In this document: positions 3,066 to 15,378 of the stretch, one piece after another
How the letters are laid out: the number at the start of each line of letters is the position of its first letter
Position numbering within the stretch: position 1 is the stretch's first letter
DNA from: Petrotoga mobilis SJ95
Lineage (GTDB): Bacteria; Thermotogota; Thermotogae; Petrotogales; Petrotogaceae
DNA: 64,000 nt
NCBI RefSeq assembly: GCF_000018605.1
Contig: NC_010003.1
Span: forward strand, 844,501 to 908,500
Direction of reading: 5' to 3'
Made by a program: the position numbers and the translations under genes
Notes under the pieces: model-generated
What the model was told of the DNA's origin: nothing
What the model saw: the letters and a program-made list of their open reading frames with translations, nothing else
The model's database searches: none

Positions 3066-3100
3066 TTATTTGGTAATTATTTGGGAAAGGATAATTGCAA

Positions 3101-3868
3101 ATGAAAAGATTTCCATTAGTACTTATATTAATTACATTAATATTCTCCACCTTGAATTTTGCCTCTAGTCCCTCTAAGGTGCTTTTTCTAAGTGATTTTA
3201 CTCACTCTTTAAAAAACGAATTAATTTTTGATTTAAAGTTTGAAGATATTTACCAAACTAGGTTTAGTTTTGACTTTGAATCTTTAGAAAACGAAGTTAA
3301 ATTATCGAACGTAGATAACGTAATTAATTATTTCAAATTTGATCAAGCAGGCTTCGAATTTTCGTATAGAAATCCCGGAAATAGAAACGATCCATACTTT
3401 TTAACAGACAGTTTTGATAGTTTTAGCATGGTTTTGGATGATTATTTTGTACTAACCTTCAACGATTTGAAAATTGGGATTATCTTTAAAGAATCCCTTT
3501 TTAACATGTCCTTTTGGACTGAGGTTACAGACCTTTCTCAATCAAAAGTTGCCATGACTTTAGCAACCCCAAACAACTTGGGCATATCTCTAGGATTTGA
3601 AGATATTATGAAGTATTATTTTAGAGCCGGAGATTTACTTTTTTCTTTAGATGATAATGCCCTTGACTCTGTTTATATTTTGAACCAAGATTTTTTATTG
3701 GAGTACAATGCAAGCACCCAATCTCTTTGGGTTGATTCGATATATTTCGATAAAAATGATGAAAATTTCTATTTTCGAATACCTGTTACCAGAAATTTAT
3801 TTTTGACTTATTCCAATCTTGGAATAGGAGTTTCTTTCTATGTAGAACTTTTAGGTGAAAACAACTAA
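3101..3868 (+). CDS. Secreted or envelope protein of unknown function
   Basis: I do not recognise a family. The ~255-residue product starts with a clear signal peptide (MKRFPLVLILITLIFSTL, then NFASS), so it is exported. The remainder is rich in alternating Phe, Asp, Asn and Ser with no further membrane helix, consistent with a β-rich periplasmic or outer-sheath protein. GGAAAGG lies 10 nt before ATG 3101 and 4 nt before an in-frame TTG at 3095; either could be used, with two residues' difference. It sits 15 nt upstream of cheR on the same strand and may be co-transcribed with it, but nothing in the sequence shows a chemotaxis role. Confidence 0.7.
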   Translation: MKRFPLVLILITLIFSTLNFASSPSKVLFLSDFTHSLKNELIFDLKFEDIYQTRFSFDFESLENEVKLSNVDNVINYFKFDQAGFEFSYRNPGNRNDPYFLTDSFDSFSMVLDDYFVLTFNDLKIGIIFKESLFNMSFWTEVTDLSQSKVAMTLATPNNLGISLGFEDIMKYYFRAGDLLFSLDDNALDSVYILNQDFLLEYNASTQSLWVDSIYFDKNDENFYFRIPVTRNLFLTYSNLGIGVSFYVELLGENN

Positions 3869-6301: not shown

Positions 6302-6769
6302 TTGAAAATACTTGTAATTAGCGATCTACATATTCCTATAAAATCAGACTTGAAAAGTCTTGACAAATTAAACTTTGGACTTTATGATCAAATATTCTTA
6401 CTCGGTGACATCGTGGATATCGAAGTACTGAATTACTTAGAAAATCAAAAGCCCATACTTCATGCTGTGTATGGAAATATGGACGATTTTTATATAAAAA
6501 ATCGACTCCCCGAAAAATTGTATTTAGAATTATTTGACAAAAAAATAGGTCTTATCCACGGTCATCAAACTGGTCGTGCAATACCTGAAAAACTGTTGAA
6601 ATATTTTAATAAAAAGATCGATTTGATGGTCTTTGGACATTCGCATTATCAAGAGAAACATGAAATAGAGGATACTTTGATATTGAATCCGGGGGCTTTT
6701 TGCGAAGGTGAGTATGCAGAAATAGAATTGAATGATAGTATCCTTGAAATCAAGTTACTGCATCTGTAA
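6302..6769 (+). CDS. YfcE/MJ0936-type metallophosphoesterase
   Basis: Small cytoplasmic metal-dependent phosphodiesterase of the YfcE/MJ0936 family; natural substrate unknown. All metal-binding motifs are present in 155 residues: ISDLHIP (D-x-H), LGDIVD (GD), YGNMDD (GN-D), IHGHQTG (GH) and VFGHSHYQ (GHSH), and the usual LILNPGA segment follows. The start is TTG 6302, 7 nt after GGAGGTGG; no ATG is available near the SD. It converges with the minus-strand operon ending at 6782, only 12 nt away. Confidence 0.9.
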   Translation: MKILVISDLHIPIKSDLKSLDKLNFGLYDQIFLLGDIVDIEVLNYLENQKPILHAVYGNMDDFYIKNRLPEKLYLELFDKKIGLIHGHQTGRAIPEKLLKYFNKKIDLMVFGHSHYQEKHEIEDTLILNPGAFCEGEYAEIELNDSILEIKLLHL

Positions 6770-6781
6770 TTTTACGATAAG

Positions 6782-7918
6782 CTAATCAATATATTTTAGG
6801 TATCTTTCGTTTATGCTATTATCTTCTATGATATTCGAATAGACTTTTGCAAAGTTTCTTAAACTGATATAATTATTTTTATCGTCTATTCTGTACAGAC
6901 CTGTTTTTAAAAGACGATTATTGATTTTAATATCACTTAAGGAATTGTAGATGTATCCGAAAATTTTCACATTACTTTCCAAAGATTGATTAATCTTGTA
7001 TAAATTATTAACTAAATAACGGCTTTTTAAACTATCGTCCTCAACAGTTGATATATTCTCAGTTATTAGAAAAGGCAGGTAATATTTATAAGAAAATCTT
7101 TTTATTACTTCATCAAGATCAATGTTATTCTTCTCTTTTGAAAGTTCTTTTATTAAAGAAGTATATTCTTCTGAATTTGAAGTTAAATCATTGAAATCTA
7201 TCCCGATAAAATCTATTTCAGACTTTTTAAAAGCCATGTTTTCAAAAAAAGGGCTTTTCCCCTTAACAACTATATCGATAAAAGAAAAAACAAAATCTAA
7301 CTGTTCTTCTTCCTCGACATTGAATTCCTCACTTACCGATACTTTAGCGTAAGGGTTAATACTTTTTATAATACGAACACTCTTATCGTAAAAATTTAAA
7401 AGATTTTGAACCGTTTCATTTAATTCGGTCTTATCAACATCTGTACCTTTGAAAAATCTTCTTTTTAGGTATTTGGTTGTATGATTCAAAATAATGTAAT
7501 ATTGAACCTTGTATTTAAAAGAGGAGACAATCTTTTCTATAATTTCTATAAATTTCGAGATATTTTCTTCGTTTTCTATAGTATCAATAATTTCTTTTTG
7601 ATTGTACGAAAGAACATCAAAGTCGATGAGATTTACTATAGGTTCAATTTCCCTTTGACGTAGTTGTTCTATAAAATTATCATACATGGTGCAAGAATAA
7701 AAAGGATCAAGATACAACAAATCCCAATTTAAATTGAATCTAAAAGAGTTAATTTTCAAACTCTTCAAGAAGGATAATTGTTCGCTTAAGTCTTTTTCTG
7801 CATTTTCAAATATTCGTTGTTTCGTTTCTTCCCTTGAATTTTCCAAAAGAGGAAAGAAAGGGGAGTTTACTCCCCACAAAAACGCTTTCGGAAAATTTAC
7901 ATCTTCCACATAAAACAC
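6782..7918 (-). CDS. GH1-like β-glycosidase homologue, probably catalytically dead
   Basis: 378 residues with the outline of a family 1 glycoside hydrolase but shorter than the usual ~440-450. Recognisable landmarks in order: FPKAFLWGVNSP (9-20), INSFRFNLNW (56-65; compare xxYRFSISW), REIEPIVNL (89-97), the β-strand YYIILNHTTK (140-149) where active enzymes have TxNEP, IDFIGIDF (235-242), LITENIS (285-291; nucleophile Glu287 kept) and FGYIYNSLSDI (320-330) where active enzymes have YxxWSLxDNFEW. The acid/base Glu is replaced by His146 and the sugar-binding Trp/Glu segment is lost. It is the last gene of the MacAB-TolC-like operon, 5 nt after the permease, so a structural or ligand-sensing role linked to export is an inference. 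No signal peptide. Confidence 0.75.
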   Translation of the reverse strand: MFYVEDVNFPKAFLWGVNSPFFPLLENSREETKQRIFENAEKDLSEQLSFLKSLKINSFRFNLNWDLLYLDPFYSCTMYDNFIEQLRQREIEPIVNLIDFDVLSYNQKEIIDTIENEENISKFIEIIEKIVSSFKYKVQYYIILNHTTKYLKRRFFKGTDVDKTELNETVQNLLNFYDKSVRIIKSINPYAKVSVSEEFNVEEEEQLDFVFSFIDIVVKGKSPFFENMAFKKSEIDFIGIDFNDLTSNSEEYTSLIKELSKEKNNIDLDEVIKRFSYKYYLPFLITENISTVEDDSLKSRYLVNNLYKINQSLESNVKIFGYIYNSLSDIKINNRLLKTGLYRIDDKNNYISLRNFAKVYSNIIEDNSINERYLKYID

Positions 7919-7923
7919 CTTCT

Positions 7924-9132
7924 TTACTCGTATCTTAACGCTTCTATTGGACTCAACTTTGATGCCTGATTTGCTGGGTATATACCAAAGAATAGACCTA
8001 TTCCTGCAGATACCCCAAATGATAAAGCGATCGATTTCCAGGTAATAACCGCCGTTAATCCAAAAGCTCTACCAAAGTATGCTATCAAACCAGAAAGGAA
8101 CCCACCTAATATCATACCTATTATACCAGCTACGACCGTTAAAACTATACTCTCAACTAAAAATTCCATCAAAATCCTATGTCTTGTGGCTCCAATAGCC
8201 ATCTTTATACCTATCTCTCTGGTTCTTTCTTTAACGGTGACGAGCATAATATTCATTATTCCTATTCCACCTACAACTAAAGAAATTGCCGCTATTCCCA
8301 CAAGTATCACATTCATTATACCAGTTATTTGGTTTACAGCTTCTAAAATAGCATCTTGACTTAATATACTGTACTTATCAGAATCTCCAAATTTTCTATA
8401 AAGATAAAAATCGGTCCCCATAGTTGCCAACTGTGCAGAGTTTTCATCCACTGCTGATACAAAAATAGAACTCGTTCTTCCATTCATATGAAACAGCCTA
8501 TAATCTGCTACATTATGTGGGAGTATTATCATATCATCAACGTTAAACAACAATCTGCTGCCTGTTTTTTCCAAAACGCCAACTATTTCAAAAGAAACTT
8601 TTCTACTACCAGAATCTCCACTTTGAATAACATTGATTCGTTCACCAACAACATTTTGACTACCAAATAATTCATTAGCTATATTATAACCTATAACGGC
8701 AACTGAATTTAACTCTTCTTCATCAGTTTCCTCTAACCTTCTTCCAGAAGCAACCTCTAAATTCATTATATCAAAAAAACTAGTCATAACTCCAAATACC
8801 GATCCAGAAGTGGTTTCACCACCACTTTCCACGGTCAGATTCGAATTCAAAACACCCGTGGCATTCTTTACTTGTGGAACCATATTCTTGATGTTAATAG
8901 CATCCTGAAATTCAAGTGGCTGGGATGAAAATCTGGAATACACAGTTGAGTTAACCATAATGATGTTTGATCCAAGAGAAGAAACGGTATTGTTTATTTC
9001 TTGCCTTGCCCCATCACCTATGGCAATTATCGTCATTACCGCACCAACACCTATTATTATTCCCAACATTGAAAGAAACGTTCTCAACTTGTTAGAACGC
9101 AAAGATCTAAAGGTCTCTTTAAGTATTTCCAA
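7924..9132 (-). CDS. MacB-type ABC transporter permease
   Basis: 402-residue permease with the MacB_PCD plus FtsX layout: one N-terminal membrane helix after LRSNKLRTFLSMLGIIIGVGAV (~11-32), a large periplasmic domain (~40-280), then three membrane helices and the C-terminal YPANQASKLSPIEALRYE signature. It uses ATP hydrolysis by the partner ATPase to drive mechanotransmission to the periplasmic adaptor rather than forming a classical channel. The start is TTG 9132, 7 nt after GAGGTG, overlapping the ATPase gene by 14 nt. Substrate unknown: peptide, lipid or antibiotic export are all possible. Confidence 0.92.
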   Translation of the reverse strand: MEILKETFRSLRSNKLRTFLSMLGIIIGVGAVMTIIAIGDGARQEINNTVSSLGSNIIMVNSTVYSRFSSQPLEFQDAINIKNMVPQVKNATGVLNSNLTVESGGETTSGSVFGVMTSFFDIMNLEVASGRRLEETDEEELNSVAVIGYNIANELFGSQNVVGERINVIQSGDSGSRKVSFEIVGVLEKTGSRLLFNVDDMIILPHNVADYRLFHMNGRTSSIFVSAVDENSAQLATMGTDFYLYRKFGDSDKYSILSQDAILEAVNQITGIMNVILVGIAAISLVVGGIGIMNIMLVTVKERTREIGIKMAIGATRHRILMEFLVESIVLTVVAGIIGMILGGFLSGLIAYFGRAFGLTAVITWKSIALSFGVSAGIGLFFGIYPANQASKLSPIEALRYE

Positions 9133-9814
9133 CTGTGTTCACCTCAATCGCTTGGATCTTCCCATCCAACAATCTTATTATTTTGGAACCTTCATCCAAC
9201 ATTTTTAAGTCATGAGTAACAACGACTAACGTTTTACCCATATCGTTTAACTTCCTAAATATTTGAAGAATTTCTTCTCCACTTTTAGTATCAAGATTCC
9301 CAGTCGGTTCATCCGCCAAAAGAAATGCTGGATCGTTAGCTAAAGCCCTTGCTATTGCTACTCTTTGTTGTTGCCCACCCGATAGTTGAGTTGGCCTATG
9401 ATTTATTCTGTCACCTAGCCCTACTAACTCTAATTGCTCTTTTGCTATCTCCCTTCTTTTTTTCTGAGGTACACCTGCATATATTAAAGGAAGTTCAACA
9501 TTTTCTAATGCACTCAATTTTGGCAGTAAATTGAAACTTTGAAATACAAATCCTATCTTTTTGTTTCTTACCCTTGCCAATTCTCTATCTTTCATTTTGG
9601 ACACTTCCACATTTTCGATGTATATCTGTCCTTTCGAAGGTTTATCCAAACAACCTAGCAGTTGTAACAAAGTTGATTTACCGCTTCCTGAAGGTCCAAT
9701 TATTATTGCATATTCGCCATCTTCAACACCAAAAGATACACCACGTAGTGCCTCAACTTTCACTTCTCCTACATCGTATATCTTCCATACCTCTTTCAGT
9801 TCCATTACCGCCAT
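9119..9814 (-). CDS. MacB/LolD-type ABC transporter ATP-binding protein
   Basis: 231-residue ATPase subunit. Walker A GPSGSGKST, Q-loop FQSFNLLPKLSALENVELPL, signature LSGGQQQRVAIARAL, Walker B LLADEPTGNLD and the switch His in VVVTHD are all intact. In this operon ATPase and permease are separate genes, unlike fused E. coli MacB. I choose ATG 9814, whose A overlaps the upstream stop (TGATG) and lies 6 nt after GAGGTGG; a TTG one codon earlier is possible. Pairs with the permease at 7924-9132. Confidence 0.94.
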   Translation of the reverse strand: MAVMELKEVWKIYDVGEVKVEALRGVSFGVEDGEYAIIIGPSGSGKSTLLQLLGCLDKPSKGQIYIENVEVSKMKDRELARVRNKKIGFVFQSFNLLPKLSALENVELPLIYAGVPQKKRREIAKEQLELVGLGDRINHRPTQLSGGQQQRVAIARALANDPAFLLADEPTGNLDTKSGEEILQIFRKLNDMGKTLVVVTHDLKMLDEGSKIIRLLDGKIQAIEVNTVGNT

Positions 9815-10893
9815 CAAAATCCACCTCTTCCAGTACCTCCGCCAGGGCCTTGTGGTACGGTACCTGGAGCCATGGGTATCCCCATTGGAATACCATAATT
9901 TTGCATTATTCTTTGTGCTTCCTCTTGAGATGGCAATATCAATACCTTATCTCCCGGTTTTAAACCTTGGGTTATTTCTATCATGCTATCCGATTCTTTC
10001 CCCGTTTGTACTTGAACAGGTTCCATACCACCTTCTGAAGTTTTTTTGTATACTATTTTTGTTCCATTAGCCCCTTCGTGAATGGCATCTTTAGGTACTG
10101 CCACAGTGTTTTCCAATTTTAAGGTAACTATTTCGACATCCGCCGTTATTCCTGGAGTTAAGAGATTTTGAGCATTATTTTGTGTAAATTCAATCTCAAT
10201 GGGTATAACAACTACGCCCATATCCGTTTGAGTAGTTGGACTAATCCATGTTATTTTGCCCGGTTCTTCTAGATTCAAAGGATCTATTCTTATCGTTGCA
10301 TCCATCCCTTCATTTATAAGCGGGAAGTCTATTTCATCAACAGCAGTTTCAACTTTTATTGTACTTCTGTCCACTATCGTCAAAATAGCGGATGTTGTCC
10401 CAACCATATCTCCCTTCGAAATATTTACTGTGTTTACTATCCCTGAAACGGGAGATTTTATTTCAGTTTCTTCCAAATTCTTCTTTGCTTTTTCCAACTG
10501 TAATCTCTTTACTTCTTTCATCCGTTCACCTACGTTGGTTGATGATTCGTAATCATTTAAGGCATTCAAATATGCTATTTGATAGTCAAGATCGTCTATT
10601 TTAGCTAATATCTGCCCTTCTTCAACCTCGTCTCCTTTTTCTACGTATACCTCAACTATCTCCCCAGAAACTTTTGGAATCACTGATTCAATCTCAGCGG
10701 TTATGTTTCCCACCACTTCGATCGAATCTCCTACACCATCTGATTTTACCTCATATTCTAAGTATATTGAAGGTAATCCACTTGATTCAGAAGTTGTAAG
10801 TGAGCTTTGCCTTGGGAAAAATATTATCCCAACTACTACGACTATAGCTACTATCACTATTGTCCATATCGTTACCTTTCCTCTTTTTTTCAA
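9814..10893 (-). CDS. MacA-like periplasmic adaptor (membrane fusion protein)
   Basis: 359-residue HlyD/MacA-type adaptor that bridges an inner-membrane exporter and a TolC-like duct. N-terminal membrane anchor (~8-26), a split lipoyl/barrel-sandwich domain (VPKVSGEIVEVYVEKGDEVEEGQILAKID and IKSPVSGIVNTVNISKGDMV), a very short α-hairpin between them (~115-145), a β-barrel and a membrane-proximal domain. The tail is rich in Pro/Gly/Met (residues ~335-359), which is unusual. Start TTG 10893, 7 nt after GGGGTG; its 4-nt overlap with the preceding TolC-like gene implies translational coupling. Confidence 0.92.
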   Translation of the reverse strand: MKKRGKVTIWTIVIVAIVVVVGIIFFPRQSSLTTSESSGLPSIYLEYEVKSDGVGDSIEVVGNITAEIESVIPKVSGEIVEVYVEKGDEVEEGQILAKIDDLDYQIAYLNALNDYESSTNVGERMKEVKRLQLEKAKKNLEETEIKSPVSGIVNTVNISKGDMVGTTSAILTIVDRSTIKVETAVDEIDFPLINEGMDATIRIDPLNLEEPGKITWISPTTQTDMGVVVIPIEIEFTQNNAQNLLTPGITADVEIVTLKLENTVAVPKDAIHEGANGTKIVYKKTSEGGMEPVQVQTGKESDSMIEITQGLKPGDKVLILPSQEEAQRIMQNYGIPMGIPMAPGTVPQGPGGGTGRGGF

Positions 10894-12233
10894 TTTATAT
10901 CACCCCATATGTCCACATAGTATTGCTGCATTATTCTTAATTCGTTTGTCAGAATGTCGTTTTCCACCTTTTCACTAGCTAATTGTGCCCTTCTCAACGA
11001 TATTTCTGATAATTTTAATTCTTCTTTCGTTATGTATCCTTGATCATTTAATTCTTTATTTCTATCGTAATCTTCCATAGCGTTTTCTAAATCTATTTGT
11101 TTTATTTTAACGTCATAATTCAAAGTTTTTCTTGTTGTTTCCAAATTTCTTATCGCATTTTCAGTTTCTATTATACTTTCGTCGTATGTCAAAGCGGCAA
11201 CGTTTGTTTTCATCGTATCAGACGCCAACTTTCTTTCTCCTTTATCTAATATAGCTAATTGAAATCCTACACTTATACTCAAATTATCAATCAAATTTTC
11301 TCCTTCTTCAAAAAATGGATTCATAGACACACTTATCGTATTGAAAGGCAGGTAAGGAATGAACCAGAAATTACTTTCTATTTCCGATGCCTCTTCTTGG
11401 AGTTGCAATGATTTTAAATCTAACCTTTCTTCAACATTCGTTGGGTAGTTTTGATTTTCGTTTATTATTCTTTCTACCGTATCTTTTGCTTGAAGATACA
11501 AATCATCTGTGTATTCAAAGTATTCTAAGGGTGCGTTGCTTGCCCTTAGAGTTTCTAAATTCTTCTGTGCAGTTAATATCTGTTTTTCTAAGCTTTCTTT
11601 TTCGTCTTCATCGGTTGATAAATTGTACTGTTGGTTCAATATTTCTATTTCATCTTGGTACGTTTGAATCATCTCTTCATTGTAATGTCTTGTGAATATA
11701 TCTTCGATCGTGGTTATGAGTTCATTCGTTTGAGCGAAGTAATATTTAGAGAGTGCATCGTAGTAACTGCTTTCAGTTTTCAACCTTTCCGCCCTGTCAA
11801 TGATTGTTAGATCACGAGATAAGGAGATTGCTATCTCTGTTGCTGGAGGAGTGTCTATCGTCCATTCATCTGTATTTAAAGTAAAAGGAAACGAGGCACC
11901 TACCTTTGCTCCCCATACTTCTAAAAAGTTTACGTCCAAAGAAATCCTGTAACCTTCCAGTTTTCCTTCCCCCCCAAAAACTAACCCACTAAGGGTGGTT
12001 GGCCCTACTGGACTTATCTCTGTTTTCATTGTATCAACAGATATTCCTAAATATGGAACAAAGAAGTTATCTATTTTATTCAACTCTAATTGCGCGCTTC
12101 TTAAGTTCAACTCTGCTTGCATATATGATGAACTTTTCTCTAAGTTTTGTTCGTATAACTCTTCGAACGTCATCCCAAATATGCTCAGGATTCCTACGAG
12201 AAGGGTTATTACTAAAACTATAAGTTTTTTCAC
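10890..12233 (-). CDS. TolC-family outer-membrane efflux protein (447 aa)
   Basis: Predicted outer-membrane duct subunit. A signal peptide (MKKLIVLVITLLVGILSIFG) is followed by a fairly short OEP region and two long helical blocks with heptad-like spacing, e.g. residues ~195-235 and ~360-430. The last block (SEISLRRAQLASEKVENDILTNELRI) is a typical OEP helix. The start is GTG 12233 with SD GAGGAGGT, overlapping the upstream tolC-like stop by 4 nt. Two dissimilar TolC-like genes in tandem suggest a hetero-oligomeric duct or paralogue division of labour; that is inference. Confidence 0.85.
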   Translation of the reverse strand: MKKLIVLVITLLVGILSIFGMTFEELYEQNLEKSSSYMQAELNLRSAQLELNKIDNFFVPYLGISVDTMKTEISPVGPTTLSGLVFGGEGKLEGYRISLDVNFLEVWGAKVGASFPFTLNTDEWTIDTPPATEIAISLSRDLTIIDRAERLKTESSYYDALSKYYFAQTNELITTIEDIFTRHYNEEMIQTYQDEIEILNQQYNLSTDEDEKESLEKQILTAQKNLETLRASNAPLEYFEYTDDLYLQAKDTVERIINENQNYPTNVEERLDLKSLQLQEEASEIESNFWFIPYLPFNTISVSMNPFFEEGENLIDNLSISVGFQLAILDKGERKLASDTMKTNVAALTYDESIIETENAIRNLETTRKTLNYDVKIKQIDLENAMEDYDRNKELNDQGYITKEELKLSEISLRRAQLASEKVENDILTNELRIMQQYYVDIWGDIN

Positions 12234-13231
12234 AATCCTACCTCCTCAAGGCTCCTTCCTGTGTCTATTACGTAGTTGATGTATGCTTTTATGTAACTTC
12301 TCACACTTTCATAATAATTCTTTTGTGTTGTTAGATAGTTTATGTTCGCAGTGTTTAGCTCCAATTCAGATACCAATCCTTTATTGAATCTATCCATTGT
12401 GTCTTTGTATGTACTTTGAGTTAAGCTCATTCTTTCTTCTAAGTTCTTCAGATTTTTGTAAAGAGTTTCGATACTATTTTTTGTTGTTTTATGTGCCTCA
12501 ATCAATGTATCTTGAGAGTCTTGCAAAGTTAAGATATTTTTTTGGTGGATTATCTCCGCTATTCTTTTATCGTAAGATGATGCGTTGGCAGGTAAGTTGT
12601 TGAGATCGTATTGTGAAATATCTACGTTTATTTGTGCAAGTTTTAAGTTGTAGTTGTTGTTTAAATATTCTTGATCACTCACGAATATGCCTTCATACGT
12701 AGGAATGTTTATTTCTATTTGGCTATAATCTCCTTCGTATAATTCTTTTAAGTTATCTTTGGCGGTTTCTAAATTTAATTTTGCACTTTCCAAATTGTTC
12801 TGTGCATCACTTACATCAAGTTCAGAACTTTTAAGATCATCTTCTGAGATCAATCCGTTGTTGAACAATTCAGAGTTATTATCGTAAGTTATCTGGGCGT
12901 TTTTTAACTGCAAATCCGCAGTTTTTACATTTATTTCCTCTACGTAAACATCCAATACTCTGTCTACTATGTCACCGTAGTAATCTTTCATAGAAGCATT
13001 GTAGTTTGAAAGACCTGAGTAATAACTTAATTCCCCACTTAATTCTAACTTTCTGTTCGTTGCCTCTATCTTAGCCTTGTTGTAGTCGAGGTTAGTCTTT
13101 TCGAGATCGAGCTGCGCAGTTTTGTATATTGTACTACTTGCTTTGGCTGTATCAAACACCTCTGTTAACCCCGCTGAAAACATCCCCGTCACTAAAATCA
13201 GTGTAAATGCTATCAATACGACTTTCTTCAT
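12230..13231 (-). CDS. TolC-family efflux protein, short paralogue (333 aa)
   Basis: First gene of the export operon. A signal peptide (MKKVVLIAFTLILVTGMFSAGL) is followed almost entirely by α-helical, coiled-coil-like sequence with the OEP hallmark LTEVFDTAKASSTIYKTAQLDLEKTNLDYNKAK near the N-terminus and SELELNTANINYLTTQKNYYES near the C-terminus. At 333 residues it is about 100 residues shorter than normal TolC proteins, yet has both ends, so it is a compact form rather than a truncation. SD AGGAGG precedes ATG 13231. Confidence 0.8.
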   Translation of the reverse strand: MKKVVLIAFTLILVTGMFSAGLTEVFDTAKASSTIYKTAQLDLEKTNLDYNKAKIEATNRKLELSGELSYYSGLSNYNASMKDYYGDIVDRVLDVYVEEINVKTADLQLKNAQITYDNNSELFNNGLISEDDLKSSELDVSDAQNNLESAKLNLETAKDNLKELYEGDYSQIEINIPTYEGIFVSDQEYLNNNYNLKLAQINVDISQYDLNNLPANASSYDKRIAEIIHQKNILTLQDSQDTLIEAHKTTKNSIETLYKNLKNLEERMSLTQSTYKDTMDRFNKGLVSELELNTANINYLTTQKNYYESVRSYIKAYINYVIDTGRSLEEVGL

Positions 13232-13408
13232 CTTTTTTCCTCCTTTGGTTATTTTTTAAAATAATAAATTCACGAAGCCTTTTTAGTATATAATTTTTCA
13301 CTTAAATATAGCTTAAAAAATCCATTTTTTTAGAATATAATGAATTCTTTAACAGCTTCTAATTGTAGACAATTCCTTTCTTCAAAAGTTAGTACGAGAA
13401 AATTTTTT

Positions 13409-13445
13409 TATAACATTTGCAAATGTTATAATATTATTATAAAAT
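13409..13445 (+). promoter_or_regulatory. ftsH promoter overlapped by a perfect 22-bp palindrome
   Basis: TTGCAA (13417-13422), 17-bp spacer, TAAAAT (13440-13445) form a plausible σA promoter 40 bp before the ftsH start. A perfect inverted repeat, TATAACATTTG followed at once by its reverse complement, covers 13409-13430 and includes the whole -35 box. Such placement is typical of a repressor operator. The CsoR/CstR-like regulator two genes downstream is one candidate binder, but the site does not resemble G-rich CsoR operators. Confidence 0.6.
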
Positions 13446-13485
13446 ATAAGTGAAATAAAATTCTATTTTTTATAAGGAGGCTTTC

Positions 13486-15378
13486 ATGAATAACAATCCA
13501 AACAGAAGAGGGTCCCTAATTGGACCGTTGTTTATATATTTTATTTTAGCTATGCTTATCTTTATGAGTATTTCTCAGTTGAATACTTCGAATATAACTG
13601 AGATAAGTTACACCGATCTGGTGAATCTAATAAATCAAGATACAATCATTAGTTTGCAGATCGACACAAGTGGGTTAATCCAAGCAAAAGCCAAAAACGG
13701 GCAGCTTTTTCAGGTTTACGCCCCCACTTTGCTTATGGATCAAGCTTACGTAAGGGCATTGGCAAATGATGGCATTAAGGTTGAGTATATTCAAAACACC
13801 GGAGCAAGTTGGTGGGTTACCATGCTTATCTATATGTTGCCATTAATAATACTAATGTTTTTTTGGTTTTGGATGTTCAGAAGATCTGGAACAGGAGAAG
13901 GAATACCTGGAGCCAATTATAGGAGAAATCCTGCTAGAAGATACGATTCTAAAAGAAACAAAATTACTTTCAACGACGTAGCTGGAATCGACGAAGTTAA
14001 GGAAGAATTGGAAGATATAGTTAATTTTCTAAAAGACCCTAAAAACTTCAGTGCATTGGGGGCAAAAATGCCTAAAGGTGTTCTCTTGTCAGGACCTCCG
14101 GGTACAGGAAAAACTTTGGTAGCTAGAGCGGTTGCTGGGGAGGCCGATGTCCCATTTTATTTTATGTCGGGTTCCGATTTCGTAGAATTATTTGTAGGTG
14201 TGGGAGCAGCCCGAGTCAGAGATCTTTTTAAAGAAGCAAAAGAGAATAGCCCTGCAATAATTTTCATCGACGAACTGGACGCCGTTGGAAGGCAAAGAGG
14301 AACAGGGTTAGGTGGAGGCCATGATGAAAGGGAACAAACTTTGAACGCTTTGTTGGTTGAAATGGATGGTTTTGATCCACGAGAAGGCATAGTTGTAATG
14401 GCAGCAACAAATAGGCCTGATATCTTAGATAAAGCCCTCTTAAGGCCAGGAAGGTTCGACAAAAAAATATTCTTAGATGTACCTGATTTGAGAGCAAGAG
14501 AAGAAATTATAAAGATCCACCTAAGGGGAAAAAGAATCGCAGACGATATAGACGTTAAAAGTTTGGCTCAAAGTACACCTGGTTTTGTCGGTGCTGATTT
14601 GGAAAATATGGTAAATGAAGCAGCTTTACTGGCAGCGAGAGACAACAGAGATCACATAACTAACGATGATTTCCAAGAGGCAATAGAAAGGGTGATTGTT
14701 GGTCCTGCTCGTAAATCACGCAAGATAACACCCAAAGAGAAAAAGGTTATTACCTATCACGAATTGGGACATGCCGTTTTAGGTTACCTTTTACCTTACG
14801 CTGATCCTGTTCACAAAATCACTATAGTTCCTCGCGGACAAGCCGCTTTAGGTTACACTATGCAACTTCCAAGTGAAGATAGATTTTTAATCACAGAACC
14901 AGAAATAAAGGATAAAATAGTAGGTATGTTGGGTGGAAGAGCTGCTGAAGAAATTGTGTTCAACGAAATCACGACAGGAGCAGGAAACGATTTAAAGAGA
15001 GCCACAGAGCTAGTAAGGGAAATGGTTGCCCAATTAGGTATGAGTGAAAAGATCGGCCCCATCGCTTGGGGTGAAGAAGAAGGAGAAATATTTCTGGGAA
15101 GAGAAATAACTCGAATGAAGAATTTTTCCCAAGAGACGGCTAAAGAAATTGATTCAGAGATCAAGAATTTTATTCTTAGCAGTTATGAAAAAGCTAAGAA
15201 CTTACTGTCAGAAAATAGGAAACGACTTGACCTTTTAGCTATTTATCTGTACAATAAAGAAAATATCTCTGGAAAAGAGTTCAAAAAAATGATGGAAATG
15301 GATATAGAGGAGCTTAATGACTACGTTTTAAAAGATAAAGATGTAAAAGAAACGAATCTTTTTGTTTCTTATGCCTAA
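13486..15378 (+). CDS. ftsH: ATP-dependent zinc metalloprotease FtsH
   Basis: Membrane-bound AAA+ protease for quality control of membrane and regulatory proteins. Two N-terminal membrane helices (~12-30 and ~110-131) flank a short periplasmic domain. The AAA module has Walker A GPPGTGKT (203-210), Walker B IIFIDELDA (258-266), the pore motif region FVELFVGVGAARVRD, and an SRH with arginine fingers LLRPGRFD. The protease zinc site is HELGH (425-429). 630 residues, full length. SD AAGGAGG. It heads a co-directional run of six genes to 20531. Confidence 0.97.
   Translation: MNNNPNRRGSLIGPLFIYFILAMLIFMSISQLNTSNITEISYTDLVNLINQDTIISLQIDTSGLIQAKAKNGQLFQVYAPTLLMDQAYVRALANDGIKVEYIQNTGASWWVTMLIYMLPLIILMFFWFWMFRRSGTGEGIPGANYRRNPARRYDSKRNKITFNDVAGIDEVKEELEDIVNFLKDPKNFSALGAKMPKGVLLSGPPGTGKTLVARAVAGEADVPFYFMSGSDFVELFVGVGAARVRDLFKEAKENSPAIIFIDELDAVGRQRGTGLGGGHDEREQTLNALLVEMDGFDPREGIVVMAATNRPDILDKALLRPGRFDKKIFLDVPDLRAREEIIKIHLRGKRIADDIDVKSLAQSTPGFVGADLENMVNEAALLAARDNRDHITNDDFQEAIERVIVGPARKSRKITPKEKKVITYHELGHAVLGYLLPYADPVHKITIVPRGQAALGYTMQLPSEDRFLITEPEIKDKIVGMLGGRAAEEIVFNEITTGAGNDLKRATELVREMVAQLGMSEKIGPIAWGEEEGEIFLGREITRMKNFSQETAKEIDSEIKNFILSSYEKAKNLLSENRKRLDLLAIYLYNKENISGKEFKKMMEMDIEELNDYVLKDKDVKETNLFVSYA

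Follow-up and report, generated by a model that had tools for sequence, protein, structure and literature searches.

Among proteins of the GH1 family, close described counterparts of the protein reported here include alpha- and beta-Klotho, animal pseudoenzymes that serve as tandem-domain co-receptors binding FGF tails (PMC10628560 and PMC7828330, accessible portions). For beta-Klotho, the available part of the former source describes an Asn in place of the first catalytic Glu in domain KL1 and an Ala in place of the second in KL2, with KL2 binding the FGF21 tail via a former catalytic Glu. The pseudo-glycosidases named in the accessible part of the review (PMC7828330) come from animals and a parasite, with no bacterial GH1 pseudoenzyme named there, and none was among the matches listed in a search of the open literature.

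Here, we analyzed a 64,000-nucleotide stretch from the genome of the heat-loving bacterium Petrotoga mobilis SJ95 (hereafter the window) that encodes a protein resembling the Klothos in having a GH1 barrel without the full catalytic pair; an Asn at the first Glu, as in KL1, also occurs in two of its relatives (L036 and L038). Unlike the Klothos, the window protein is bacterial, has just one domain, shows no recognisable signal peptide and lies outside the animal group, but by analogy it may work like a bacterial counterpart of the Klotho-type GH1 pseudoenzymes. Its predicted fold is like that of 1vff, a membrane-bound beta-glycosidase of Pyrococcus horikoshii and the top structural match, and it shares both orthogroup and fold with four intact proteins (L039-L042). 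Whereas those are 422-426 aa long and carry 11 of 11 classical GH1 residues, the window protein carries 3 and lacks about 15 alignment columns after residue 27 as well as two residues of the FEW segment. The genes around it recall MacAB-TolC-type tripartite exporters, with genes for a MacB-type permease, an ATPase, an HlyD-type adaptor and TolC-like proteins in a row (Table 1). The window exporter differs, however, in that the ATPase has its own gene, that two TolC-like genes are present, and that a GH1-fold gene lies behind macB, the last of these in three genera only.

An initial annotation of this DNA had proposed a GH1-like ORF at 6782-7918, placed last in the exporter operon and 5 nt from the permease gene. 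The ORF is genuine (minus strand, 378 aa from a GTG in the ORF list), with Pfam, phmmer and fold matches all above chance. A phosphoesterase gene at 6302-6769 (+) converges on it, leaving 12 nt between the two ends. An assembly or frameshift artefact was ruled out, as full-length frames occur in 9/9 exporter-linked loci. While the listed start lies 5 nt past the end of macB (7924), the more likely start is codon 4, GTG 7909 (MEDVNFPK), because the Shine-Dalgarno-like AGAAGGTG precedes it by 6 nt and because homologues share this starting point, several of them with ATG. The reported spacing therefore holds for the listed start, and becomes 14 nt, with a protein of 375 aa, for the start we prefer. 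All numbering below follows the 375-residue form, in which H143 corresponds to H146 of the initial annotation and E284 is the nucleophile position. The placement as last operon gene likewise holds in the window, but in two sister genera the GH1-like gene is followed by a bacterial alpha-2-macroglobulin gene on the same strand (L035:3983-8593 (-), L036:9667-14343 (+) and L038:3863-8461 (-)); no relative of that gene was detected in the window's own genus (0/6 genomes at E 1e-20). Spacing and strand suggest that the GH1-like gene is co-transcribed with the exporter, and its product is presumably cytosolic, given that no signal peptide is apparent by eye and that intact orthologues start alike (MxxxFPxxFLWG).

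Table 1. Features of the GH1-fold pseudoenzyme gene and the adjoining exporter genes in the window
Feature	Position	Strand	Basis
GH1-fold pseudoenzyme, probable CDS, 375 aa	6782..7909	-	ORF list, RBS spacing, homologue starts, Pfam GH1, AF2 model
Codon of Glu 284, nucleophile position; D or Q in sister species	7058..7060	-	Alignment
Codon CAT, His 143/375, at GH1 acid/base Glu position	7481..7483	-	Sequence and alignment
GC-rich hairpin GGGGAGTAAACTCCCC and T/C-rich tract, terminator-/attenuator-like, within 5' coding region	7860..7875	-	Terminator scan and locus comparison
Shine-Dalgarno-like AGAAGGTG, between macB stop and GTG 7909	7916..7923	-	Sequence
MacB/FtsX-type permease	7924..9132	-	Pfam MacB_PCD 131 bits, FtsX 71 bits
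ABC ATPase, MacB/LolD-like, own gene	9119..9817	-	Profile matches
HlyD/RND-type periplasmic adaptor	9814..10893	-	NCBIfam TIGR01730 148 bits, cut-off 94.9
TolC-like outer membrane efflux protein 1, 447 aa	10890..12233	-	Pfam OEP 31 bits
TolC-like outer membrane efflux protein 2, 333 aa	12230..13231	-	Pfam OEP 54 bits

The exporter operon opens with two distinct TolC-like genes (10890-13231 (-)) that are joined by 4-nt overlaps. Elsewhere in the window, a conserved 257-aa protein is encoded at 3095-3868 (+), with a dN/dS of about 0.15 within the genus and no Pfam match at E 1.

Kinship with GH1 enzymes was assessed by profile and by predicted structure. The window protein matches Pfam PF00232 at 31 bits (cut-off 22.6, E 1.2e-7), although the profile no longer reaches every relative, with exporter-linked L037 and L036 giving no GH1 match at E 0.01; the NCBIfam profile for BgaS beta-galactosidase (NF041004, cut-off 475) was not reached either, at 47.7 bits. 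A phmmer search of the PDB returned GH1 enzymes as top matches (best E 3.1e-13). An AlphaFold2 model built from the window protein and nine homologues reached a pLDDT of 81.8 and a pTM of 0.86, with weak stretches at residues 21-27 and 243-261. Both Foldseek and VIA-align ranked 1vff first, followed by GH1 enzymes (for 1vff, Z 37.2, rmsd 3.0, 343 aligned residues, 23% identity), and beta-Klotho appeared among the best 50 structural matches listed, with chains 5wi9 and 5van among the matches. The structural overlay that had been recommended places the model on GH1 enzymes, but since the model's alignment included GH1 enzymes, the predicted fold is support rather than fully independent proof. 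By profile and predicted (beta/alpha)8 fold, the window protein is a GH1 member. In scans of genome contigs, the window protein as query found no relative, and the eight-sequence alignment A2 found L116 and eight generic GH1 proteins at 19-22% identity. The Petrotoga mobilis genome holds the GH1-like gene as a single copy, together with one other GH1 gene (L077), which is intact at 11/11 positions.

We next took 43 proteins from the phylum and recorded how many of 11 classical GH1 positions each one keeps, namely the two catalytic Glu and the -1 subsite positions, which we take to be Q20, H121, W/F122, N165, N293, Y295, W398, E405 and W/F406 (the numbering likewise being our assumption). L053 (an over-long frame) and L064 (the same gene as L099) were left out of both the tree and the scoring; for the GH1 set, 14 of 30 loci were taken and six used, leaving out L076, L079-L083, L089 and L095, whose frames could not be extracted. 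All 11 positions are kept in 24 of the 43 proteins, and 7 positions, with both Glu present, in two 6-phospho-glycosidase-like paralogues. The other 17 are degenerate, keeping 1-7 positions with one or both catalytic Glu changed: the nine exporter-linked proteins (1-4 kept), L113 (2 kept, with a placement uncertain by one residue), six proteins of genus g5 (4-7 kept) and L056 (5 kept).

In the window protein itself, 3 positions are kept (catalytic Glu counted) and 8 are lost. NHT stands where intact orthologues read NEP (acid/base Glu, strand 4), WSLxDNFEW has become YNSLSDIK with a 2-residue deletion, and a nucleophile Glu is present in ITEN, at the place of the TENG motif on strand 7 of active GH1 enzymes. 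Our alignment agrees with the initial annotation on the first two of these changes; the nucleophile Glu, which it reported as kept, is indeed kept in the window protein, but reads D or Q in three of the four other close species that have the same His. Its expectation of a conserved E-to-H change failed, as the His is limited to the five closest species while the four other exporter-linked homologues carry N, N, D or E. Across all nine, the acid/base position is thus occupied by H (5), N (2), D (1) or E (1), and the nucleophile position by E (5), D (3) or Q (1). The suggestion that the protein holds a sugar finds no support as far as a GH1-like mode is concerned, since 8 of 11 canonical subsite residues are lost (7-10 across the exporter-linked proteins). 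Judged by its residues, the window protein is no active GH1 glycosidase, and we infer an absence of hydrolysis.

Catalytic residues also differ in the degenerate proteins found away from the exporter. In g5 (L054, L055 and L058-L061), the nucleophile position is Ser in 6/6 proteins, with the acid/base Glu (6/6) and the FEW segment kept; L056 (9198-10478 (-), 426 aa), from a second family, reads NKP and has lost both catalytic Glu. The 43-protein tree joins the exporter-linked set, L113 and g5 in one group next to intact L041; the same orthogroup includes intact L039, L040 and L042. Homologues retaining both catalytic Glu, against which the initial annotation had staked its reading, do exist in these same-family orthologues (L039-L042, 11/11 residues), but only away from the exporter. 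Because some lineages lost what others kept, the catalytic losses are independent and the ancestor had both Glu, unless reversion occurred; on this residue evidence, one enzyme orthogroup has lost catalysis several times in neighboring genera.

To place the GH1-macB arrangement in the phylum, we compared the range of both genes. The protein search matched 47/103 genomes at E 1e-5 and the macB search 50/103 at E 1e-50, with a GH1 gene behind macB in only 9/103, which are 9/9 of the genera g1-g3 (the window, from g1, and L031-L038). In all nine, the macB-GH1 gap is 5-21 nt, with amino-acid identity down to about 40%. We further inspected 12 macB loci without GH1 out of the 50 permease genomes. 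Outside g1-g3, the row TolC2-TolC1-adaptor-ATPase-MacB was present in 9 of 11 loci (L102-L112), the exceptions being L106, which ends with its contig, and L108, in which one TolC-like gene was unrecognised; the five-gene exporter order of the window is therefore seen across the phylum. One genome of the genus, G051, encodes a second MacB-type permease, 65-66% identical (L101, 1809-5918); its neighbors include an adaptor gene and one for a distant ABC ATPase, but no GH1. A GH1 protein as a general exporter subunit was ruled out by the counts of permease genomes and GH1-macB loci, and the general tie to export that the initial annotation had drawn fails also because orthologues elsewhere sit beside other genes. 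What survives of that proposal is a GH1-fold pseudoenzyme gene that selection maintains and that follows a MacB-type permease gene on the same strand at a distance of a few nt.

How far this adjacency speaks for function depends on the surrounding block, yebC ... mtnA-MPE-(A2M)-GH1-macB ... ftsH, which is largely syntenic in g1-g3 (in L031, ftsH was not recognised and other frames are in its place); because of this synteny, adjacency to macB is weak evidence of function and not independent. The strongest rival to an exporter-linked role is a pseudoenzyme that took on a second, non-catalytic task early, for instance a cytosolic or membrane-associated one, and that came to lie behind macB through a chance rearrangement; its strength is that in other genera catalysis was lost at other genomic sites. 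Within the same orthogroup, the degenerate g5 orthologues adjoin UPF0047 and not the exporter, and a spermidine synthase gene adjoins both degenerate L113 (G046) and intact L041 (G038); in the second family, L056 has neighbors in common with intact L045-L052, so that one locus has met different fates. The exporter, moreover, mostly occurs without GH1. Set against this, the nine g1-g3 genomes have all kept the gene within the same short distance of macB at such divergence, and the macB link held though downstream genes came and went, with A2M present in g2 and g3 and absent from 6/6 g1 genomes. We regard this exporter-independent role as a real contender, albeit with less than even prospects. 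Separately, the degenerate GH1 group of g5 was seen to sit behind HAD as well as UPF0047 genes.

Estimates of selection indicate that the gene is maintained. NG86 dN/dS for the pseudoenzyme gene is 0.20-0.33 in 7/7 exporter-linked pairs and 0.14-0.21 in 4/4 pairs of g5 pseudoenzymes, compared with 0.05-0.11 in 3/5 pairs of intact GH1 genes (the other two, saturated in dS, were left out of the comparison). Among the exporter genes, values are 0.03-0.16 for macB, 0.08-0.18 for the adaptor, 0.16-0.26 for TolC1 and 0.07-0.11 for TolC2. By these ratios, the exporter-linked gene is under purifying selection and both degenerate groups are constrained, though less than their intact relatives; constraint on the exporter-linked gene is relaxed, since its dN/dS lies well above that of macB. 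The gene could instead be the relic of a redundant glucosidase that is decaying slowly, held back by residual constraint alone, which would fit ratios above those of intact GH1 and macB, the presence of an intact GH1 paralogue in this genome, and the broken copy in G041, though further genes there also look broken. We consider such a relic unlikely, given the level of constraint, the newly fixed residues described below, and full-length frames not only in all exporter-linked loci but also in 6/7 g5 genomes.

A comparison of the nine exporter-linked with 11 intact proteins found 33 residues common to both and 34 fixed (in at least 8/9) in the exporter-linked set only, such as D96 (H in intact proteins), N240 (Y), N322 (W), S193 and E194. 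Newly fixed positions are enriched at the catalytic mouth, taken as the C-terminal ends of the strands plus or minus 2 residues (9/40 vs. 25/335, p = 0.005), with no enrichment at strand starts (4/40, p = 0.50); without the hairpin-coded residues 14-18 (see below), the mouth enrichment becomes 6/35 vs. 25/335 (p = 0.06). Of the nine classical subsite positions, three have become fixed for a different residue (p = 0.04). These patterns are only suggestive of new constraint at the barrel mouth, and the pocket may have been rebuilt, making the binding of another ligand possible (D96, N240, N322 and E194). A repurposed enzyme, with a new mouth site (D96, N142, E194, N240, N322 and E/D/Q 284) performing different chemistry, perhaps on the exporter substrate, would fit the newly fixed subsite positions and the invariance of D96, N142, E194, N240 and N322 in alignment A2. 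Yet positions 284 and 143 vary, L037 (outside A2) departs at 96, 142 and 240 in what is a small sample, and a known catalytic or metal motif was not identified, so that we hold this explanation improbable too. Finally, an active GH1 enzyme using His as acid/base, the altered chemistry that the initial annotation had entertained, is rejected as highly implausible: the window protein keeps the nucleophile Glu and the Asn165 equivalent, but the nucleophile varies (E, D or Q) beside the same His, itself restricted to a few close species, and the equivalents of Q20, H121, Y295, W398, E405 and W406 are lost.

The 5' coding region of the gene contains a further element that bears on its expression. 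A terminator scan first drew attention to a hairpin, GGGGAGTAAACTCCCC followed by TTTCTTTCCT (coding strand 7875-7860), 48 nt past macB; this terminator-like element has a 6-bp stem with 5 GC pairs, and its tail TTTCTTTCCT is broken by C. A GC-rich hairpin is present in 8/9 exporter-linked loci, in a differing register in L035 and in L036/L038, and is absent from L037. Native stems were stronger than those of synonymous recodings under local codon use in seven loci (P 0.007-0.036), with P 0.097 in L034 and 0.85 in L037. Of the 11 relatives whose gene is not linked to macB, two gave P < 0.05. As the stretch used for recoding was hand-chosen, a sliding test served as its control: in six loci, the hairpin stretch was the lowest of 334 gene windows (mean z -2.19, standard deviation of all windows 0.43), and lay below the lowest of 197 macB windows (-1.03). 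This mean covers three lineages without L037; including L037 gives -1.77, still the lowest among the windows listed.

Other measures were less distinctive. RNAalifold on 8/9 loci (L032 left out) found column-wise covariation nearly absent (term 0.05) because the hairpin register shifts between lineages, and dinucleotide shuffles gave z of -0.8 to -4.2 in 7/9 loci and +0.7 in L037, so that, taken one sequence at a time, only L035 and L036 carry a hairpin that stands out. No Rfam family was found in 6500-13700. In the 12 macB loci without GH1, a terminator-like hairpin lies 0-40 nt past macB in seven (L102, L103, L104 and L107-L110) and is lacking in five. We read the window hairpin as a probable exporter-end terminator or attenuator that now overlaps the pseudoenzyme coding sequence. 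That it attenuates expression of the pseudoenzyme, presumably lowering it, is a plausible suggestion that we rate a little short of even.

Together, these results lead us to favor, by a modest degree, a cytosolic GH1-fold barrel that performs no glycoside hydrolysis and has been retained for some non-catalytic function, most likely that of an exporter accessory. We are highly confident that the protein is a selected pseudoenzyme, while a functional tie to the exporter in particular is a tentative proposal. Under the accessory reading, the pseudoenzyme would be made from the exporter transcript by read-through past the hairpin, its output would fall below that of the exporter because of this terminator-like element in its 5' end, and a partner or ligand would be bound via the barrel surface or the rebuilt mouth (D96, N142, E194, N240 and N322), with the pseudoenzyme assisting the MacB-type exporter through binding or regulation. 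A fuller version is more speculative, and we doubt that all of it holds: a GH1 barrel rebuilt as a dedicated accessory whose new polar mouth binds cargo or the ATPase/permease, dosed below the pump via the hairpin, and representing one of several independent conversions from enzyme to non-enzyme.

The repeated catalytic loss in neighboring genera points to a role that is independent of chemistry. As this loss occurred under purifying selection, it provides a natural series of intact, half-lost and fully lost forms within one bacterial family. Such a series would make it possible to study which roles a metabolic enzyme has other than its chemistry, and to find out if a new partner was acquired in the exporter-linked branch.
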